This document shows positions 8,090 to 42,951 of a stretch of DNA of 51,614 nt, in pieces. This stretch comes from Bacteroidota bacterium (GTDB lineage: Bacteria; Bacteroidota; Bacteroidia; B-17B0; Aurantibacillaceae): assembly GCA_016194985.1 (NCBI GenBank), contig JACQAK010000154.1, positions 1 through 51,614 on the forward strand. Reading direction: 5' to 3'. The translations under genes and the position numbers were made by a program. How positions within the stretch are numbered: position 1 is the stretch's first letter; each line of letters begins with the position of its first letter. The notes below the pieces were generated by a model. That model saw nothing but the letters and a program-made list of their open reading frames with translations. It was not told the DNA's origin and did no database searches.

Positions 8090-8185
8090 ATTAGGCGTGT
8101 CCACCAGCTGGCGGATTGGGCTTTACGCTACAATCTTTTTTATTCGTCCATCATAAAAAAGGATTTTCGCTGCAATCCCTTTAAT
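8090..8185. repeat. dispersed intergenic repeat with internal imperfect duplication
   Basis: About 95 bases, markedly richer in GC than the surrounding spacer. It contains CCACCAGCTGGCGG (8101-8114, a near palindrome), then GGGCTTTACGCTACAATC at 8118-8135 and the related GGATTTTCGCTGCAATCC at 8161-8178, separated by T- and A-runs. From memory it resembles a repeat widespread in Bacteroidota intergenic regions, so it is probably a genomic repeat, not a gene. It may also act as a transcript end for the preceding operon. Confidence 0.6.
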
Positions 8186-8268
8186 TATGCAAGCATAACT
8201 AATATGATTTAAATCAATTTTTACCGATTATCTACAGAATGTTAATTAAAATAATGAGGTAAAAATTT

Positions 8269-34064: not shown

Positions 34065-35330
34065 ATGACAAACTTTTTGAATACTCTTGAATTTGCTAAA
34101 CAATTAGATTCTCAGGATACACTCCATTCATACAGAAGTAAATTCCATATTCCTCAACACGAAGGACATGATATGGTTTATTTTACGGGTAACTCTCTGG
34201 GCTTACAACCAAAAACCACCAAAGATTATCTGCAACAAGAGTTGAACGATTGGGCAACTTATGGCGTGGAAGGGCATTTTTTAGCTAAAAACCCCTGGAT
34301 GAGCTATCATGAAATATTAACTGACAAAACAGCGAAAATTGTTGGCGCATTGCCTAGTGAAGTGGTAGTGATGAATCAGTTAACAGTAAACCTGCATTTA
34401 CTGATGGTGTCATTCTATCGCCCAACCAAACAACGTTACAAAATATTATGTGAAGCCAAAGCTTTTCCAAGTGATCAATATGCGTTGCAATCACAAGTGA
34501 AATTTCACGGTTACCCCATTGATGATGCGTTAATTGAAATTGCTCCACGCGAAGGCGAATACGAAGTTCGTCATGAAGATATTTACAAAGCTATTGAAGA
34601 TAACAAAGACTCATTAGCACTCATTATGGTTGGCGGGGTGAATTACTTTAGCGGACAAGTATTTGACATGAAAGCTATTGTAGAAGCAGGGCACAAAGCA
34701 GGGGCGGTTGTTGGTTTTGATTTAGCTCATGGAGCGGGTAATTTAAAATTACATTTACACGATTGGAATGTTGATTTCGCAGCATGGTGTTCATATAAAT
34801 ATTTAAATGGTGGTCCTGGTTGTGTTGCTGGTGCATTTGTTCACGAAAAACATCATAAAAACACAGACATGCCTTTATTTGCAGGATGGTGGGGACATGA
34901 TAAAGCAACACGCTTCAAAATGGATAGAGAATTTGTTCCAATTCAAACGGTTGAACGCTGGCAGTTAAGTAATGCGCCTATTTTATCAATGGCAGCCTAC
35001 AAAGCATCTTTAGATATATTTGATGAAGTTGGCATGGATAAGTTGATTGAAAAAAGCAAAGTTCTAACTGCTTATTTAGAATTTATAGTTGGGGAAATCA
35101 ATAAACAAAAAAATAATTGCTTAGAAATTATTACCCCAAAAGAAAACAGAGGTTGTCAAATAAGTATAGTGGCTCATGGACAAGGAAAAGCCTTGTACAA
35201 TAAATTAATTGAAAACGGAGTGATTCCGGATTGGAGAGAACCTAACGTGATTCGTTGTGCGCCTGTGCCAATGTATAATTCCTTTGAAGATATTTACAGA
35301 TTTGGGGAAATCTTAAACCGATTATTGTAA
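34065..35330 (+). CDS. kynU: kynureninase
   Basis: A 421-residue PLP enzyme cleaving kynurenine to anthranilate and alanine (or 3-hydroxykynurenine to 3-hydroxyanthranilate). The start of the fold has YFTGNSLGLQPKTT. The PLP-binding region is GFDLAHGAGNLKLHLHDW, followed by the Schiff-base lysine K245 in WCSYKYLNGGPG. The tail includes RCAPVPMYNSFEDIYRF. Length is normal. No other kynurenine pathway gene is adjacent; downstream is the separately controlled histidine operon. Confidence 0.94.
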   Translation: MTNFLNTLEFAKQLDSQDTLHSYRSKFHIPQHEGHDMVYFTGNSLGLQPKTTKDYLQQELNDWATYGVEGHFLAKNPWMSYHEILTDKTAKIVGALPSEVVVMNQLTVNLHLLMVSFYRPTKQRYKILCEAKAFPSDQYALQSQVKFHGYPIDDALIEIAPREGEYEVRHEDIYKAIEDNKDSLALIMVGGVNYFSGQVFDMKAIVEAGHKAGAVVGFDLAHGAGNLKLHLHDWNVDFAAWCSYKYLNGGPGCVAGAFVHEKHHKNTDMPLFAGWWGHDKATRFKMDREFVPIQTVERWQLSNAPILSMAAYKASLDIFDEVGMDKLIEKSKVLTAYLEFIVGEINKQKNNCLEIITPKENRGCQISIVAHGQGKALYNKLIENGVIPDWREPNVIRCAPVPMYNSFEDIYRFGEILNRLL

Positions 35331-35382
35331 TCTTCTGAAAAGCCTGTAAATTAAAGGAAATTAAAAATAATTTCAAAAATTG

Positions 35383-35414
35383 TTGTTTCATTCGATTTTT
35401 TTGATTTACATTTG
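35383..35414 (+). promoter_or_regulatory. Bacteroidota-type promoter of the his operon
   Basis: TACATTTG (35407-35414) matches the -7 consensus TAnnTTTG, with a TTG at 35383-35385, 21 nt upstream. Transcription would start around 35418-35422, only a few bases before the leader-peptide ATG at 35424. That implies a leaderless or nearly leaderless start for the regulatory peptide. Confidence 0.65.
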
Positions 35415-35423
35415 TCACAAGAA

Positions 35424-35501
35424 ATGAAAAATTTTAATCAAATACATCATCATCATTCTAATGCCGCACTGGTAAGTGGGAGTGTTGATACTATGATTTG
35501 A
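35424..35501 (+). CDS. hisL: histidine operon leader peptide
   Basis: A 25-codon reading frame, MKNFNQIHHHHSNAALVSGS and five more residues, with four consecutive CAT histidine codons at 35445-35456 (codons 8-11) and stop TGA at 35499-35501. Placement between a good promoter and a hairpin terminator, just before hisG, is that of a classical his attenuator peptide. Stalling at the His codons under histidine limitation would free TGGTAAG (35470-35476) to pair with CTTACCA (35533-35539) and disrupt the terminator. It is too short to be picked up by length-based gene finding. Confidence 0.88.
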   Translation: MKNFNQIHHHHSNAALVSGSVDTMI

Positions 35502-35556
35502 TTTCAAATATAACGTATTTATAACCCAAAGGCTTACCACTCGGTAAGCCTTTTTT
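35467..35556 (+). promoter_or_regulatory. his attenuator: pause hairpin, antiterminator and terminator
   Basis: Three mutually exclusive structures can be drawn. CACT-GGTA-AGTG (35467-35478) is a small pause hairpin inside the leader frame. TGGTAAG (35470-35476) pairs with CTTACCA (35533-35539) as an antiterminator, with GAGTG (35480-35484) to CACTC (35538-35542) as an alternative. GGCTTACC (35531-35538) with GGTAAGCC (35543-35550), plus AAA and a T-run, is the terminator (35528-35556). The terminator's left arm is shared with the antiterminator, as ribosome-mediated attenuation requires. Confidence 0.82.
35528..35556 (+). terminator. attenuator terminator of the his operon
   Basis: AAAGGCTTACC (35528-35538), loop ACTC, and GGTAAGCCTTT (35543-35553) give an 11-bp stem, with the T-run continuing to 35556. 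It lies 27 nt after the leader-peptide stop and 35 nt before hisG, so it would stop transcription before the structural genes when histidyl-tRNA is plentiful. Confidence 0.88.
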
Positions 35557-35591
35557 ATTTATAAAAATTTAATAATATTAAAATATAAAAC

Positions 35592-36452
35592 ATGAAAACA
35601 AAATTAAAAATAGCCATTCAAAAATCAGGACGTTTAAGCGAAAATTCCTTAAAGCTTTTAAAAGAATGCGGCATCGATATCGATAACGGACTAAATAAAT
35701 TAAAAACAGAAGCTTCCAACTTTCCTATCGAAGTTTTCTTTTTGAGAGATGATGATATTCCTCAATATGTTGAAGATGGTGTAGCCGACATTGGTATCGT
35801 TGGAGAAAATGTATTATTGGAAAAAAACAAAAGTTTAAAATTAGTTGATAGACTAGGCTTTGGAAAATGCCGTTTGTCTTTAGCTATACCAAAAGAGCAA
35901 AACTACAAATCCATCAAAGATTTAAACGGGAAACGCATTGCTACCACCTACTCTACAATTCTATCTAAATATTTAAAATCCCAAAAAGTAAAGGCAGAAA
36001 TTCACGAAATTAGTGGCTCTGTGGAGATTGCCCCAAGTATTGGATTAGCTGATGCAATTTGTGATTTAGTAAGTTCAGGAAGTACGTTATTTACAAATGG
36101 ATTAAAGGAAGTAGAAGTTATTTTAAAATCAGAGGCAGTATTAGTTGCAAACAAAAAATTAGGGAAAGAACAGCAAACAATTTTAGATAAATTATTATTT
36201 AGAATGAATGCTGTTCGAAAAGCAAAAAACACCAAATACATTTTATTAAATGCTCCCAATAACAAATTAGAAGCTATCTGTAAAATATTACCGGGAATGA
36301 AAAGTCCTACCATTTTACCTTTAGCTGATAAAGGATGGAGTTCTGTTCACTCAGTTGTTGAAGAAAATCAGTTTTGGGAAATTATTGAAAAACTGAAAAC
36401 TGAAGGTGCACAGGGAATATTAGTTGTACCAATCGAAAAAATGATATTGTAA
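35592..36452 (+). CDS. hisG: ATP phosphoribosyltransferase, long form
   Basis: A 286-residue HisG catalysing the first step of histidine synthesis, joining ATP and PRPP. The N-terminal part has LKIAIQKSGRLSENSLKLL and the phosphate-binding VSSGSTLFTNGLKEVE. The C-terminal 70 residues (about 215-286) form the PII-like regulatory domain of the long, HisZ-independent form, which is histidine-inhibited in known members. It is the first structural gene after the attenuator, so the pathway is controlled by both transcription and probable feedback. Confidence 0.95.
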   Translation: MKTKLKIAIQKSGRLSENSLKLLKECGIDIDNGLNKLKTEASNFPIEVFFLRDDDIPQYVEDGVADIGIVGENVLLEKNKSLKLVDRLGFGKCRLSLAIPKEQNYKSIKDLNGKRIATTYSTILSKYLKSQKVKAEIHEISGSVEIAPSIGLADAICDLVSSGSTLFTNGLKEVEVILKSEAVLVANKKLGKEQQTILDKLLFRMNAVRKAKNTKYILLNAPNNKLEAICKILPGMKSPTILPLADKGWSSVHSVVEENQFWEIIEKLKTEGAQGILVVPIEKMIL

Positions 36453-36465
36453 TTCGACAAAAACA

Positions 36466-36537
36466 TTCAACCCGAAGGGGTTGTACATGAATAATAACAA
36501 CAATAACTATTCACATGCAACCTCCTTCGGGGTTGAA
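36466..36537. repeat. palindromic intergenic repeat between hisG and hisD
   Basis: The 99-nt spacer is filled by an imperfect long inverted repeat. TTCAACCCGAAGGGGTTG (36466-36483) and its extension pair with CAACCTCCTTCGGGGTTGAA (36518-36537). GAAGGGG/CCTTCGG cores are clearly visible in an otherwise AT-rich spacer. It resembles, from memory, a repeat common in Bacteroidota genomes. In the transcript it would form a stem-loop between the two cistrons. Confidence 0.65.
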
Positions 36538-36551
36538 CAAAACAAACAAAT

Positions 36552-37835
36552 ATGAATCTAATTCAATATCCCAATAAAGAAATCTGGAAAGATATTTTAA
36601 AACGTCCTTCCATTGATAATACTTCGTTAGAAACAACTGTGCAAACTGTTTTATCTGATATTAAAACAAATGGTCAATCTTCTGTCAAGAAATATACATT
36701 ACAGTTTGATAAAGTTGATATAGAAAACATTTTGGTTAGCAATGATGAATTTGCGGTAGCTGAAAAATCGATTACTATAGAGTTAAAACAAGCGATTCAA
36801 TTAGCGAAAAAGAACATTGAAACGTTTCACAAAGTGCAAAAGGAAAATAGCCAAGTCATAGAAACCATGCCGGGTGTTAAATGCTGGAGAAAATCAATCG
36901 CCATACAAAAAGTAGGATTGTACATTCCGGGAGGAACAGCACCTTTATTCTCAACTATCTTAATGTTAGGAGTTCCTGCCAAATTAGCAGGCTGTGAGGA
37001 AATTATTTTATGTACGCCTCCTGATGTAAATGGTAATATCAATCCTGCAATATTGTACACAGCGCAGTTAATTGGTATTTCGAAAGTGTATAAAGTGGGT
37101 GGTGTGCAAGCTATTGGTGCCATGGCATATGGCACAGAAGTTATTCCACAAGTATATAAGATATTCGGACCGGGTAATCAATATGTAACATGTGCCAAAC
37201 AACTTATCAATAAACAAGGTGTTGCTATTGATATGCCTGCGGGGCCATCTGAAGTAGCGGTATTAGTTGATGAAACTTGCGTTCCTGAATTTGTAGCGGC
37301 TGATTTATTATCACAAGCAGAACATGGGTCAGATTCTCAAGTGATTTTAGTTTCAACAAATGAAACTATCATACAAAACATTCAAATAGAATTAACAAAA
37401 CAACTAGCTGAATTGCCAAGAAAAGATTTAGCCTCAAAAGCATTAGAAAACAGCAAGGCAATTTTACTAAAAACAAATACAGAAGCAATCGACTTATTAA
37501 ATGAATATGCTCCAGAGCATTTAATTATTGCCTGCGCAAACGATGAGCAATTATCTGAACAAGTTGTAAATGCAGGCTCTGTATTTTTAGGAAACTATTC
37601 ATGTGAAAGTGCGGGAGATTATGCTTCAGGAACTAATCATACATTGCCAACCAATGGTTATGCAAAAGCTTACAGTGGAGTTTCGTTAGATAGTTTTGTA
37701 AAGAAAATTACTTATCAAAAATTAAGTAAAGAAGGAATAAATAATATCGGTCCCTCTATCGAATTAATGGCAGAGGCAGAAGGTTTACAAGCTCACAAAA
37801 ATGCAGTGACCGTAAGATTAAAAAATAATTTATAA
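36552..37835 (+). CDS. hisD: histidinol dehydrogenase
   Basis: A 427-residue enzyme that oxidises histidinol to histidine in two NAD-dependent steps and binds zinc. Recognisable segments are VGLYIPGGTAPLFSTILMLG, KIFGPGNQYVTCAKQ, AIDMPAGPSEVAVLVD and the zinc/catalytic region LLSQAEHGSDSQVIL. Further on are NEYAPEHLII and GDYASGTNHTLPT. Length is standard. hisC begins 3 nt after its stop. Confidence 0.96.
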   Translation: MNLIQYPNKEIWKDILKRPSIDNTSLETTVQTVLSDIKTNGQSSVKKYTLQFDKVDIENILVSNDEFAVAEKSITIELKQAIQLAKKNIETFHKVQKENSQVIETMPGVKCWRKSIAIQKVGLYIPGGTAPLFSTILMLGVPAKLAGCEEIILCTPPDVNGNINPAILYTAQLIGISKVYKVGGVQAIGAMAYGTEVIPQVYKIFGPGNQYVTCAKQLINKQGVAIDMPAGPSEVAVLVDETCVPEFVAADLLSQAEHGSDSQVILVSTNETIIQNIQIELTKQLAELPRKDLASKALENSKAILLKTNTEAIDLLNEYAPEHLIIACANDEQLSEQVVNAGSVFLGNYSCESAGDYASGTNHTLPTNGYAKAYSGVSLDSFVKKITYQKLSKEGINNIGPSIELMAEAEGLQAHKNAVTVRLKNNL

Positions 37836-37838
37836 ATC

Positions 37839-38891
37839 ATGTTTGACATCAATACAATCGTTAGAGACAACATCAAATCACTGCAATCCTACAAAGTATG
37901 GAGAGATGACTATCTGGATAACAACGAGGCTATCTTTTTAGACAACTGTGAAAACAATTTTGGCTCTCCACTTGGGTTGGGATATGAGCGTTATCCATCA
38001 TCTTCTCAAAGCAAATTAAAAGAAGCTATTGCAACTTATAAAAATTTAAAACCAAATCAGGTAGTAATTGGAAATGGCAGCGATGAACTCATTGATTTAT
38101 TAATTCGTTGTTTTTGTGAACCTAAACAAGACAACATATTAATTTGTGAACCAACTTTTGGAATGTTTAAAGTATATGCGCAACTAAATAATATACAAGT
38201 GTTAAACGCACCATTAGTAAAAGAAACCTTTCTATTTGATGAGGAATTAATTTTAAAAACTGCTACAGCAACTACTAAATTGATTTTTATATGCTCCCCT
38301 AATAATCCAACGGGAACAAGCATTTCAATTGAACAACTAAGAAGCATAGCATCAAATTTTAATGGCATTGTTATAGTAGATGAAGCTTATATTGATTTCT
38401 CCAAAAAACAATCGGCCATTGAACTTATTCGTGAGTATTCAAATATCATTGTGCTTCAAACGTTTTCAAAAGCTTGGGGATTAGCAGCCTTGCGAGTTGG
38501 GGTAGCGTACGCAGATGCTTCGATTATTGAAATAATGAATAAAGTGCGCCCACCCTTTAACATTAACTCCAATTCACAAGAATTGATATTAAATGCCTTG
38601 AAAAAATCATCAATAAAAGATACATTAGTAGAAAACATTTTAAAACAAAAAACATATTTAGAAAACGAATTGCAGCAGTTGTCATTTGTGAAAAATATCA
38701 CTGAAAGCGATGTCAACTTTTTATTAATTGAAGTGACTGATGCCAACAAAATATGTAGCTATCTATTAGAAAGAAACATTTTAATCAGCAACCGCTCTAG
38801 CTTACTAAATTGTGAAAATCGAATCAGAATTAGTGTCGGGACTGAAAAAGAAAACAAGCAATTAATCACCTTATTAAAACAATATAATTAA
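37839..38891 (+). CDS. hisC: histidinol-phosphate aminotransferase
   Basis: A 350-residue fold-type I PLP enzyme. Recognisable parts are [16 protein letters not shown], the SPNNPTG motif ([11 protein letters not shown]), VDEAYIDFS, and the PLP-binding lysine K211 in [15 protein letters not shown]. It converts imidazole acetol phosphate to histidinol phosphate. Packed 3 nt after hisD and 1 nt before hisB. Confidence 0.95.
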
Positions 38892-38892
38892 G

Positions 38893-40002
38893 ATGCAAAA
38901 AGTATTATTTATAGACAGAGACGGAACTTTGATTTGGGAACCACCAACAGATTTTCAAATTGATAGTTTTGAGAAATTTAAATTTTTACCCGGCGTGATT
39001 ACCTGGCTTGGAAAAATTGCACGTGAGTTAGATTATGAATTAGTGATGGTAACTAACCAAGACGGACTGGGTACTGAATCATTTCCAGAAAATACTTTTT
39101 GGCCGGTACATAATTTAATGGTGGACACATTAGCCAATGAAGGAATTACTTTTGAAGACCAATGTATCGACAGAACATTTGAAAAAGATAATCAACCAAC
39201 TCGCAAACCAAATACAGGCATGTTAACTAAATATGTAAATGGTGATTATGATTTAGCAAACTCCTTTGTGATTGGAGATAGATTAACTGATGTAAAACTA
39301 GCTAAGAATTTGGGCAGTAAATCCATCTTCATCAAAAACTATGATAAAGAAACAGGTTTTGAAAATGAGATTGACAAGATTGTAGAAACGTGGGAGGAAA
39401 TTTATAATTACCTCAAACTACCTGAAAGAAAAATCACACATATAAGAACCACAAAAGAAACTGACATTGCAGTAGAAATCAATTTGGATGGAAGTGGTAA
39501 AGCAAATATTAAAACAGGTCTTTCATTCTTTGATCACATGTTAGAGCAAATTGCTAAACACGGGAATATTGACTTATCAATTAATGCCAAAGGCGATTTA
39601 CATATTGACGAACACCATACCATTGAAGACACCGCCATCACATTAGGAGAAGCCTTTGCAAAAGCACTAGGAGATAAACGAGGCATTGAAAGATATGGTT
39701 TTTGTTTACCAATGGATGATTGCTTAGCTCAGGTAGCTCTTGATTTTGGTGGCAGAAACTGGATTGAATGGCAAGCAGAATTTAAACGCGAAAAAATTGG
39801 TGATATGCCAACCGAAATGTTTTATCACTTTTTTAAATCATTTAGCGATGCATCTAAATGTAATTTAAATATTAAAGTAGAAGGACAAAACGAACACCAT
39901 AAAATAGAATCTATTTTTAAGGCCTTTGCAAAAGCCATTAAGATATCAGTAAAGAGAGACGCTAACAACATGAGTTTACCAAGTACTAAAGGAGTTTTAT
40001 AA
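38893..40002 (+). CDS. hisB: bifunctional histidinol-phosphatase / imidazoleglycerol-phosphate dehydratase
   Basis: A 369-residue fusion. Residues 1-165 are a HAD-type phosphatase with [10 protein letters not shown] and [10 protein letters not shown]. Residues 175-369 are the dehydratase with [29 protein letters not shown] and [16 protein letters not shown]. The phosphatase half lacks the zinc ligands known from E. coli HisB. Where E. coli has a CPH and a CDC cluster, this protein has [15 protein letters not shown] (residues 92-106), with no Cys or His in the motif. The two catalytic steps flank hisC in the pathway. Confidence 0.95.
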
Positions 40003-40013
40003 TAACAAAAACG

Positions 40014-40038
40014 TGTCAGTTCGAGCGAAGTCGAGAAC
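40014..40038 (+). repeat. single-arm copy of the TCAGTTCGAGCG repeat between hisB and hisH
   Basis: The spacer contains TGTCAGTTCGAGCGAAG followed by TCGAGAAC. It matches the left arm of the large palindrome at 46444-46467 with one difference (A for T). The second arm is absent here. A GTG at 40013 opens in frame through this repeat into hisH, but it is not the likely start. Confidence 0.7.
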
Positions 40039-40045
40039 AAAATAT

Positions 40046-40633
40046 ATGAAAGTATCCATCGTAAAATATAATGCAGGAAATGTGCAATCAGTTCTTTTTT
40101 CTTTGGAGAGAATAGGAATTAGTGCTACTGTAACAGATGAAAAAGAAGTTTTAACAACATCTGATAAAGTTATTTTTCCTGGCGTGGGCGAAGCGAGTTC
40201 TGCAATGCAATATTTAAAATCAAAAAACTTAGATGAGCTAATTGTAAATTTAAAACAACCAGTGTTAGGCATATGTTTAGGCATGCAATTAATGTGCAAA
40301 TACTCGGAGGAAGGAAATACAAATTGCTTAGGGATTTTTGACAACCATATTAAATTATTCAAAGGTGAAATTAAAGTACCTCAAATTGGATGGAACACTA
40401 TCTATGATTTAAAAACAAACCTATATAAAGGCATTAAAGAAAATGAATACATGTATTTTGTTCATAGTTACTATGCAGAGGTTAGTGAACACACCATCGC
40501 AAAAACAAATTACGGTTTAGAATATAGTTCATCTTTACAAAAAAATAATTTTTATGCAGCTCAGTTTCACCCAGAAAAATCAAGCGATGCAGGGCAACAG
40601 TTATTAGAAAACTTTATTCGATTTGCGAAATAG
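40046..40633 (+). CDS. hisH: imidazole glycerol phosphate synthase, glutaminase subunit
   Basis: A 195-residue class I glutamine amidotransferase. The start chosen is ATG 40046 (MKVSIVKYNAGNVQS), where homology begins; an in-frame GTG 33 nt upstream lies in a repeat. The catalytic cysteine is C77 in GICLGMQLM, and the His/Glu pair is in AAQFHPEKSS. It supplies ammonia to HisF, encoded two genes downstream. Confidence 0.95.
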   Translation: MKVSIVKYNAGNVQSVLFSLERIGISATVTDEKEVLTTSDKVIFPGVGEASSAMQYLKSKNLDELIVNLKQPVLGICLGMQLMCKYSEEGNTNCLGIFDNHIKLFKGEIKVPQIGWNTIYDLKTNLYKGIKENEYMYFVHSYYAEVSEHTIAKTNYGLEYSSSLQKNNFYAAQFHPEKSSDAGQQLLENFIRFAK

Positions 40634-40640
40634 GATTTGT

Positions 40641-40772
40641 GAAGTACGAGTTACGAGCAACGATGTAGAAAATGCAATTTAAGAAATAGAAAATATGAAG
40701 AAAGAAAATATTGAGAATCAAAATTCTGAAATCGAAATTCGTCACTCAAAAATCGTCACTCGAAAATCGTCG
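40641..40772. repeat. degenerate inverted-repeat element spanning the hisH-hisA junction and the 5' end of hisA
   Basis: GAAGTACGAGTTACGAGCAA (40641-40660) is roughly complementary to the CGTCACTC repeats at about 40740-40761, where ATCGTCACTC-type words occur tandemly. The element looks like a small palindromic repeat, and its right arm is translated as the first 27 codons of hisA. Confidence 0.55.
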
Positions 40773-41492
40773 TTTGAAATCATTCCAGCAATAGATATCA
40801 TAGACGGCAAATGTGTGAGATTAACGCAAGGTGATTACTCTCAAAAAACAATTTATAATGAAAATCCATTAGAAGTTGCTCAAGAGTTTGAAAGCATTGG
40901 GATTACTCGTTTACACTTGGTTGATTTAGACGGCGCTAAACTTGGCAAAGTAGTTAATTACAAAGTACTAGAAAAAATAGCGAGCAAAACTAAACTATCC
41001 ATTGACTTTGGAGGTGGTATTAAAACCGATGATGACATTGAAACTGTATTTAACTATGGTGCTGATTTAGCAACTATTGGAAGTATAGCAGTTAAAAACA
41101 AAGAACTGTTTTTCTCATGGGTAAAAAAATATGGTACTGAAAAAATATTTTTAGGGGCCGATGTCAAGAATGAAAAAATTGCCGTTGGGGGTTGGTTGGA
41201 AACAACCAATGTTTCAATATATGATTTCATTGATGAAAATTTAAAAGAAGGAGTTAAACAAGTGTTTTGCACAGATATTTCAAAAGATGGATTATTACAA
41301 GGGCCATCCATTGACTTATATAAAAACATGCTTGCTAAATTTCCTCAACTAAATTTAACGGCAAGTGGCGGTGTCTCTCAATTAAATGATTTGGAAGAAT
41401 TAAAAAATATTGGATGTTCAGGAGCCATTGTGGGAAAAGCTATTTACGAAGGGCACATTAGTATGAACGAACTAAAAAAATTAATTCAATGA
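40695..41492 (+). CDS. hisA: phosphoribosylformimino-5-aminoimidazole carboxamide ribotide isomerase with N-terminal extension
   Basis: A 265-residue TIM-barrel isomerase. The conserved enzyme starts at residue 28 ([20 protein letters not shown]), so residues 1-27 are an extension. That extension is low-complexity ([19 protein letters not shown]) and is encoded by repeat DNA. No ATG, GTG or TTG in frame lies closer to the conserved region, so either the extension is translated or a rare start such as ATC/ATT is used. Catalytic regions are IDFGGGIK and [13 protein letters not shown]. Its stop overlaps the hisF start (ATGA). Confidence 0.95.
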
Positions 41493-42244
41493 TAACGAAA
41501 CGAATAATCCCTTGCTTAGACATCAAAGACGGACGAACCGTAAAAGGCATTAACTTCGAAAACATCAAAGATGCCGGAGACCCTGTGGAATTAGCTATTG
41601 AATACGCCAAACAAGGCGCGGATGAGCTAGTGTTTTTAGACATCACCGCAACTAATGAAAAACGTAAAACGCTTTCAGAATTAGTTACCCGCATAGCTAA
41701 ACACATCAATATTCCATTTACAGTTGGTGGCGGAATTAGCTCTATAGAAGATGTATCCATCTTATTAAATTCTGGTGCAGACAAAATATCTGTTAATACC
41801 TCAGCTGTAAAAAATCCCCAACTGATAAAAGATTTGGCAAATCAATTTGGCAGTCAGTGTGTGGTTTTAGCCATTGATACAAAATTTGAAGACAATGATT
41901 GGTACGTTTATTTAAATGGCGGCAGAGTAAAGGCGGATTTAAAAACCATTGATTGGGCGAAAGAAGCCGTTGCTCTGGGTGCAGGAGAAATATTACTAAC
42001 CTCCATGAATAATGATGGCACAAAAGATGGCTTTGCTATTGATATTACAAAGCAAATTTCAGAAGCAGTTAATGTGCCTGTTATTGCCAGCGGAGGCGCA
42101 GGCTCAATGGAACATTTTAATGACGTATTTAAAAATGGCAAGGCAGACGCGGCATTAGCAGCCAGTGTATTTCACTATAAAGAAATAACCATCCTTCAAC
42201 TAAAAACATATTTAAAAGAAAACAGTATAGAAATTAGATTATAA
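41489..42244 (+). CDS. hisF: imidazole glycerol phosphate synthase, cyclase subunit
   Basis: A 251-residue TIM-barrel enzyme. The N terminus [19 protein letters not shown] and the phosphate-binding loops TVGGGISS and [13 protein letters not shown] are typical. The catalytic aspartates lie in CLDIKDG and [13 protein letters not shown]. It receives ammonia from HisH and makes imidazole glycerol phosphate plus AICAR. Translation is coupled to hisA by a 4-nt overlap. Confidence 0.96.
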
Positions 42245-42249
42245 AAATC

Positions 42250-42344
42250 TTCAACACAGAGATGATGAGATAAAGTAGAACACAGAGATTTTTTCAAAAA
42301 CAAAAAACTCCGCGACCTCCAAAACTCCTTACCTCTGTGTTGAA
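42250..42344. repeat. palindromic repeat between hisF and hisIE
   Basis: TTCAACACAGAG (42250-42261) is a perfect inverted match to CTCTGTGTTGAA (42333-42344). A second AACACAGAG copy occurs at 42279-42287 and CTCCGCGACCTCC at 42308-42320. The element fills most of the 116-nt spacer. It resembles the ACACAGAG-type repeats found in many bacterial genomes. Confidence 0.6.
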
Positions 42345-42360
42345 AAAACATAAATAAACC

Positions 42361-42951
42361 ATGAAACCAAACTTTACAAAATCATCAGACGGATTAATTC
42401 CCGTTATTATCCAAGATAATATTACCAACGTCGTATTAATGCTTGGTTACATGAACCAGGAAGCGTTTAATAAAACACAAGAAGAAAAACGTGTCACGTT
42501 CTTTTCCCGCTCCAAAAACAGATTATGGACCAAAGGCGAAGAAAGTGGAAATTTTTTGAATGTAAATTCATTATTAATAGACTGTGATAATGATACTATT
42601 TTAATTAAAGCAACCCCTGTGGGTCCAACGTGCCACACAGGTGCTGATACTTGTTTTAATGAAAAAAATGTATCGACTAATTTTTTAACAGAATTAGAAA
42701 CCATTATAAGAGATCGGAAAAATAATCCTACTGATAAATCCTATACAGCCTCTTTATTTGCAAAAGGCATTAATAAAATTGCTCAAAAAGTGGGCGAAGA
42801 AGCTGTAGAAGTGGTTATAGAAGCCAAAGATCACAACGATGACTTATTTAAAGGAGAAGCAGCCGACTTACTATTCCACTACCTCATTCTGCTCCAGGCC
42901 AAAAACTTTACATTAAATGATATTGTGAGTGTTTTAAAAAGCAGGCACTAA
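42361..42951 (+). CDS. hisIE: bifunctional phosphoribosyl-AMP cyclohydrolase / phosphoribosyl-ATP pyrophosphatase
   Basis: A 196-residue fusion. The cyclohydrolase half (1-105) has GYMNQEAFNKT, FFSRSKNRLWTKGEESGN, the zinc-binding DCDNDTI and TCHTGADTC. The pyrophosphatase half (about 110-196) has KINKIAQKVGEEAVEVVIEA. It is the last gene of the operon. Eight his genes together encode the complete pathway from PRPP to histidine. Confidence 0.96.
   Translation: MKPNFTKSSDGLIPVIIQDNITNVVLMLGYMNQEAFNKTQEEKRVTFFSRSKNRLWTKGEESGNFLNVNSLLIDCDNDTILIKATPVGPTCHTGADTCFNEKNVSTNFLTELETIIRDRKNNPTDKSYTASLFAKGINKIAQKVGEEAVEVVIEAKDHNDDLFKGEAADLLFHYLILLQAKNFTLNDIVSVLKSRH

Follow-up and report, generated by a model that had tools for sequence, protein, structure and literature searches.

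The window, that is, the whole 51,614-nucleotide stretch of DNA analysed here, carries a complete his operon, from hisG to hisIE, behind a leader region that follows a co-directional kynureninase-like gene (Table 1). The names of the genes downstream of hisG were inferred from Pfam families and gene order. Reading the sequence confirmed the promoter box, the 25-codon frame with four His codons, the 7-bp antiterminator pairing and the strong terminator that the original prediction had described. The frame translates as MKNFNQIHHHHSNAALVSGSVDTMI, and ATG 35424 is the only in-frame ATG, GTG or TTG between the box and the His codons. Between 35300 and 35700, the attenuator's own terminator was the single one found, with none between the end of the kynureninase gene and the his promoter; read-through from that gene could add longer transcripts. 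Two further elements were noticed, namely an imperfect palindrome between hisG and hisD (36453–36551; CAACCCGAAGGGGTTG ... CAACCTCCTTCGGGGTTG, by eye) and an Rfam match to Flavo-1 RNA at 8110–8187 on the minus strand (54.6 bits).

Table 1. Features of the his leader region and adjoining genes, with positions in the window
Feature	Position	Strand	Basis and remarks
Kynureninase-like gene	34065–35330	+	directly upstream; stop 93 nt before leader start
Possible −33 element, TTG	35383–35385	+	sequence; 21 nt ahead of the −7 box
−7 promoter box, TACATTTG (TAnnTTTG, 6 of 6)	35407–35414	+	sequence
Predicted transcription start	35419–35420	+	predicted, 4–5 nt past the −7 box
Leader peptide frame, 25 codons + TGA	35424–35501	+	sequence; ATG 35424, TGA 35499–35501
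Pause/anti-antiterminator hairpin, spanning the His codons and some of segment 2	35439–35500	+	folding, weak alone
Four His codons, proposed stall site	35445–35456	+	sequence; His cluster recurrent in hisG upstreams
Segment 2, antiterminator 5′ strand, TGGTAAG	35470–35476	+	sequence; begins 14 nt past the last His codon
Intrinsic terminator hairpin, then T-rich tail	35528–35553	+	terminator search, folding
Segment 3, CTTACCA, common to antiterminator and terminator	35533–35539	+	sequence, folding
hisG	35592–36452	+	ATG 35592; PF01634 1.8e-56, PF08029 4.8e-30
hisD, hisC-type aminotransferase, hisB, hisH, hisA, hisF, hisIE	36552–42951	+	Pfam families and gene order

The transcription start in Table 1, and with it a 5′ UTR of 4–5 nt, is predicted because the spacing of this box has been measured in two flavobacteria: in F. 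psychrophilum it occupies −12 to −5 (PMC9723704), and in F. johnsoniae it lies 4–5 nt ahead of the transcription start (PMC6847099). The F. johnsoniae work did not identify a −33 motif. The predicted UTR agrees with the earlier estimate that the frame begins about 5 nt past the start. All six same-genus loci with a readable upstream (L002, L003, L005, L006, L010 and L012) have a box of at least 5/6, with a gap between box and start codon of 9, 10, 10, 10, 5 and 6 nt, respectively. Promoter geometry and its recurrence thus support a predicted near-leaderless start in the window, as originally proposed.

The terminator stands out by folding in the window. Its hairpin has a folding energy of −16.4 kcal/mol (z −6.47), and the terminator search found one terminator in 35300–35700 against a mean of 0.1 in shuffled sequences, in line with the strong terminator claimed before hisG. 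The leader as a whole (35421–35560) is also structured, with a z of −5.48 that was equalled by 0 of 200 shuffles. Segments 2 and 3 are exact complements, and segment 3 lies in the 5′ half of the terminator; the claimed antiterminator pairing is therefore present as an exact 7-bp complement, but its folding is unexceptional in the window (z −1.58; as good in 14/200 shuffles), and a 6-nt copy of the terminator arm has a p of 0.15 in the window sequence by itself. The small pause hairpin of the original prediction likewise exists in the sequence, but its folding is unexceptional (35419–35500, −15.9 kcal/mol, z −1.37; as good in 20/200 shuffles). Folding of the window thus points only weakly to these two elements, and what supports both is comparative.

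To this comparison 185 distinct hisG upstreams contributed. HisG searches were positive in 27 of 60 genomes of relatives and, across the phylum, in 138 of 158 genomes, from which 27 new loci, then 60 and then 10 more were fetched; lineages of the phylum search are designated f27, g37, f35 and f42. The set from named genomes consists of the 80 best among 549 confirmed stretches and is therefore biased to close relatives. Left out were L004, L007, L033, L085 and L106 (too little upstream), four exact duplicates, L001, and the HisG fragment L029. The most distant group, with a HisG identity of about 28–37%, had a His leader in 0 of 20 upstreams. Among the 165 non-distant upstreams, 155 had a candidate leader and ten had none (L058, L099, L104, L180, L182, L183, L187, L199, L220 and L223). 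Seven candidates were dropped, five judged spurious (L082, L192, L200, L221 and L226) and two weak (L027 and L044), the latter two of which later looked like real leaders. A His-rich leader frame therefore remained in 148/165, in line with the conserved His runs that the original prediction had proposed to look for in related genomes. A strict rule of four His in eight codons plus a 6/6 box within 20 nt was satisfied by 81 of 169 hisG upstreams, a count that includes duplicates. In the background set it was satisfied by one of 176 gene upstreams, the window's own hisG, hence by 0/175 other genes. On this comparison, the occurrence of a His leader with a terminator upstream of hisG is not a matter of chance.

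Inside the leader frame, the five aligned near relatives differ by one 3-nt indel only. The four His codons are kept in three of the four aligned near relatives, and L006 has three. The original prediction held that loss of the His codons from close relatives that keep the terminator would count against it. Such a loss was not seen in these four and was seen, by eye, in one distant locus, L058, where a terminator-like hairpin lies directly behind the promoter box without a His leader, an apparent loss of the sensor.

A terminator was present in 122 of the 148 His leaders, compared with 9 of 1480 dinucleotide shuffles. Among the 26 leaders in which the search rule found none, nine belong to family f42; a hairpin with a mismatch or a longer loop is visible in L018, L061, L083 and L088, and no obvious hairpin was found on viewing L171, L178, L202 and L210. 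In the 122 loci, the terminator arm pairs with its own segment 2 at a mean of −10.4 kcal/mol, against −5.9 for shuffles; this pairing was matched by at most 3 of 60 shuffles in 88/122 loci and was not significant in 34/122. Segment 2 starts a median of 13 nt (quartiles 11–15) past the last His codon. Given the size of its footprint, a ribosome stalled on the His codons would end about where segment 2 begins. The geometry is that of a trp-type attenuator.

The arms fall into recurrent types, GGCTTACC in 79 of the 122 loci, CCCGTTTGA in 15 and CCCCGGC in 11. For GGCTTACC arms, the pairing energy is −11.3 kcal/mol when segment 2 is of the same type, versus −6.1 and −6.9 when it is of another; the corresponding values are −8.6 versus −7.5 and −6.0 for CCCGTTTGA arms. 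The CCCCGGC arms have hardly any preference, with −8.3 for their own type versus −8.1 with the GGCTTACC type and −3.7 with the other. Arm type and segment 2 thus tend to change together between lineages, but this is not clear for the CCCCGGC type.

The short distance between box and start codon recurs as well. For these statistics the leaders were clustered to 100 representatives; in 74 of them a 6/6 box lies no more than 40 nt from the start, and 26 have none that close. The gap is 4–12 nt in 47 of the 74 (4–5 nt in 20), 13–20 nt in 16 and 21–40 nt in 11. Among 181 ordinary genes from the window and from three relatives, 41 have such a box, with a median gap of 20 nt and a gap of 4–12 nt in 10/41. 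The difference between 47/74 and 10/41 has a Fisher p of 8e-5, a value to be read with the caveat that the clusters are not fully independent and that starts were chosen with the box in view for leaders and as the longest frame for genes. Leader starts were picked partly by box proximity, and several loci have an in-frame start nearer the box than the latest ATG. From the box to the first His codon the median is 28 nt among the cluster representatives. The published background for short starts is about 3.7% under 10 nt in B. thetaiotaomicron.

Longer gaps are concentrated in particular lineages. In genus g37 the gap is 25–35 nt in six of seven loci (L188–L191, L196 and L197) and 17 nt in L184; in f35 it is 21–33 nt in the eight of 12 loci with a 6/6 box; and in the 15 Chitinophaga loci, many of which have a 5/6 box, it is 15–20 nt in 11 and 8–12 nt in four. 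Since 16/74 gaps are 13–20 nt and 11/74 are 21–40 nt, a short leader is not needed, and the short 5′ UTR, as predicted from these boxes, is a recurrent lineage trait and not a requirement for the attenuator.

A comparable arrangement occurs at trp genes. The trpE locus of the same genome (L137) has a leader peptide containing WW, with TACATTTG 9 nt ahead of its ATG; at the end of the frame stands GAACAGC, which has its match, GCTGTTC, within the terminator (by eye). Frames containing WW were found in 13 of 14 TrpE loci; seven TrpE loci have a 6/6 box, with a gap of 7–10 nt in six and 18 nt in one. Trp-run leader peptides with a promoter-proximal layout and a terminator as in L137 were noted in L139, L141, L143 and L146. 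In the upstreams of 12 ilvD loci, no branched-chain leader linked to a 6/6 box was found. Genes with a PDT domain (pheA) occur in seven of 41 genomes, and short Tyr/Phe-rich frames, possible phe leaders, were noted upstream of such genes at L130, L133, L134 and L135.

The divergent family f42 is the boldest lead of the analysis. His-rich leaders of 22–28 codons were read in 19 of 19 genomes (L224, L225, L227–L233 and L286–L295), 15 of them with GTG as the start codon. In 17/19 the start codon lies 4–5 nt past a box of at least 5/6, and leaders with this gap are predicted to be leaderless or within 1 nt of it. No intrinsic terminator was found by the search rule in the nine f42 loci examined. 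Past the stop codon, in a stretch that takes in the first codons of hisG, the C-over-G excess is 0.13–0.22 (mean 0.17); of 139 ordinary f42 upstreams, three reach this mean. The opening bases of the frame are able to pair with sequence downstream of the stop codon, as GTGAATTC and GAATTCAC illustrate. This pairing reaches p<0.05 in only 7 of 18 loci, some of which are near-identical, and is modestly better within a locus than across loci (−7.7 versus −6.4). Our guess is that the f42 switch is Rho-dependent or translational.

The window contains what is expected of a ribosome-mediated attenuator in that a frame with a run of His codons is followed by a terminator ahead of the first gene; an antiterminator strand just past the footprint of the stalled ribosome emerges from the comparison and is unexceptional in the window alone. 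We therefore read the leader as an attenuator of trp-like topology through which a ribosome would control transcription of the his operon, with a predicted near-leaderless start. To this reading, in which stalling and timing are predictions, we assign a probability of about 0.85. Sequence and comparison show the frame, terminator and alternative pairing, together with their spacing and recurrence. Ribosome-mediated his attenuation, as originally proposed, is well supported by the comparison (leaders in 148/165 upstreams, terminators in 122/148 leaders, and the spacing of segment 2).

From these features we infer where transcription starts, that the peptide is translated, and how stalling, read-through and the timing of ribosome loading would work, as follows. 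RNA polymerase would begin some 5 nt ahead of the leader's start codon, and the first ribosome would load on that codon once it is clear of the polymerase, without a Shine-Dalgarno sequence. Attenuation needs the first ribosome to catch the polymerase. With plentiful charged tRNA-His, the ribosome would run through the frame and segment 2 would be covered or paired with segment 1; with segment 2 occupied, the terminator would form and transcription would stop near 35556. When tRNA-His is scarce, the ribosome would stall on the His run, its front edge reaching to just short of segment 2. Segment 2 would then be left to pair with segment 3, so that no terminator would form and hisG onward would be transcribed.

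One alternative accepts the attenuator but not the near-leaderless mRNA, deriving the main transcript, with a long 5′ UTR, from kynureninase read-through or another upstream promoter. Promoter geometry is indeed the sole footing of the short UTR, the co-directional kynureninase gene ends 93 nt before the leader with no other terminator found between, and 10 of the 41 ordinary genes that have a 6/6 box show a short gap too. However, the box lies at 5–10 nt in the six readable same-genus loci, and box-proximal starts recur across the survey and at the genome's own trp leader. We consider a long 5′ UTR unlikely, although it deserves to be kept in mind.

Two alternatives that dispense with the peptide fare far worse. 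It is very improbable that the structure is a plain terminator of the upstream gene with a chance His frame and no regulation: the terminator is the sole part that is strong by folding alone, yet His clusters occur in 148/165 non-distant upstreams, the spacing of segment 2 is conserved, and the promoter box sits between the upstream gene and the terminator. We give equally little credence to an RNA that itself senses uncharged tRNA or another ligand, as a T-box or riboswitch would, with the peptide as a by-product. Such a sensor would fit the structured leader (z −5.48), but no T-box or riboswitch matched at the gathering score in the window or was among the 12 Rfam matches at E<=10 in 35300–35650, and the His-coding frame recurs while terminator sequences vary by lineage.

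Attenuation through a leader peptide is a textbook mechanism, and the enteric his leader has a six-segment layout. The window leader resembles the enterobacterial his attenuator in its His-run peptide, its terminator before the his operon and an alternative pairing set by the ribosome, but has four His codons instead of seven (PMC3896937). It also differs in its simple trp-like layout and its predicted near-leaderless start. His_leader (RF00514), the Rfam model of the enterobacterial his attenuator, had no match at the gathering score in the window, nor was it among the 12 matches at E<=10 in 35300–35650. The best of these matches, Phe_leader (30.8 of 55 bits), lies on the terminator and was taken as chance. 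The his leader family did not match Rfam in the loci scanned. Bacteroid-trp (RF01692) scored 23.4 bits in the window against a cut-off of 49, and the trp leader L137 is also below it; Bacteroid-trp is likewise a leader RNA of Bacteroidetes, but for Trp instead of His (PMC2864571).

A 2021 transcriptome study of Flavobacterium describes strong clues that leader peptides attenuate amino-acid operons and, in Flavobacteriaceae, a conserved structured hisG 5′ element without Rfam hits (PMC9723704). That element concerns the same gene in the same phylum; the available parts of the study give no his peptide, pairing or start distance. Our literature search found nothing on a his leader peptide in the phylum beyond these statements, nor a phylum-wide his leader, its pairing rule or how often it starts close to the 5′ end. 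His attenuation in Bacteroidetes may have been predicted before.

Leaderless attenuator peptides are not unprecedented, as trpL of Sinorhizobium meliloti and examples in Streptomyces illustrate. S. meliloti generally uses Shine-Dalgarno sequences. Its trpL is likewise an attenuator leader peptide, with an RNA that starts at the ATG, but it responds to Trp and belongs to an alphaproteobacterium (PMC7298713). For Streptomyces lividans, leaderless peptides with a regulatory role are described ahead of amino-acid genes, some of them lacking a clear terminator (PMC8079986), and mycobacterial leaderless poly-Cys frames appear to be a further case. Unlike the his leader, these belong to Actinobacteria and concern other amino acids; leaderless mRNA is described as common in that phylum (PMC3896937).

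We tentatively raise a broader idea, which we think possible rather than probable: in many Bacteroidia-like lineages, amino-acid attenuators may have been selected for a leader start at or near the mRNA 5′ end, where the first ribosome would be delivered to the polymerase by position and not by a Shine-Dalgarno sequence, and f42 may have an exactly leaderless, mostly GTG-started and terminator-less his switch, whose C-rich tail and possible helix would point to Rho or translation. With its frequent starts close to the 5′ end across many families, the his switch would provide a natural set for tests of the coupling between ribosome loading and transcription.
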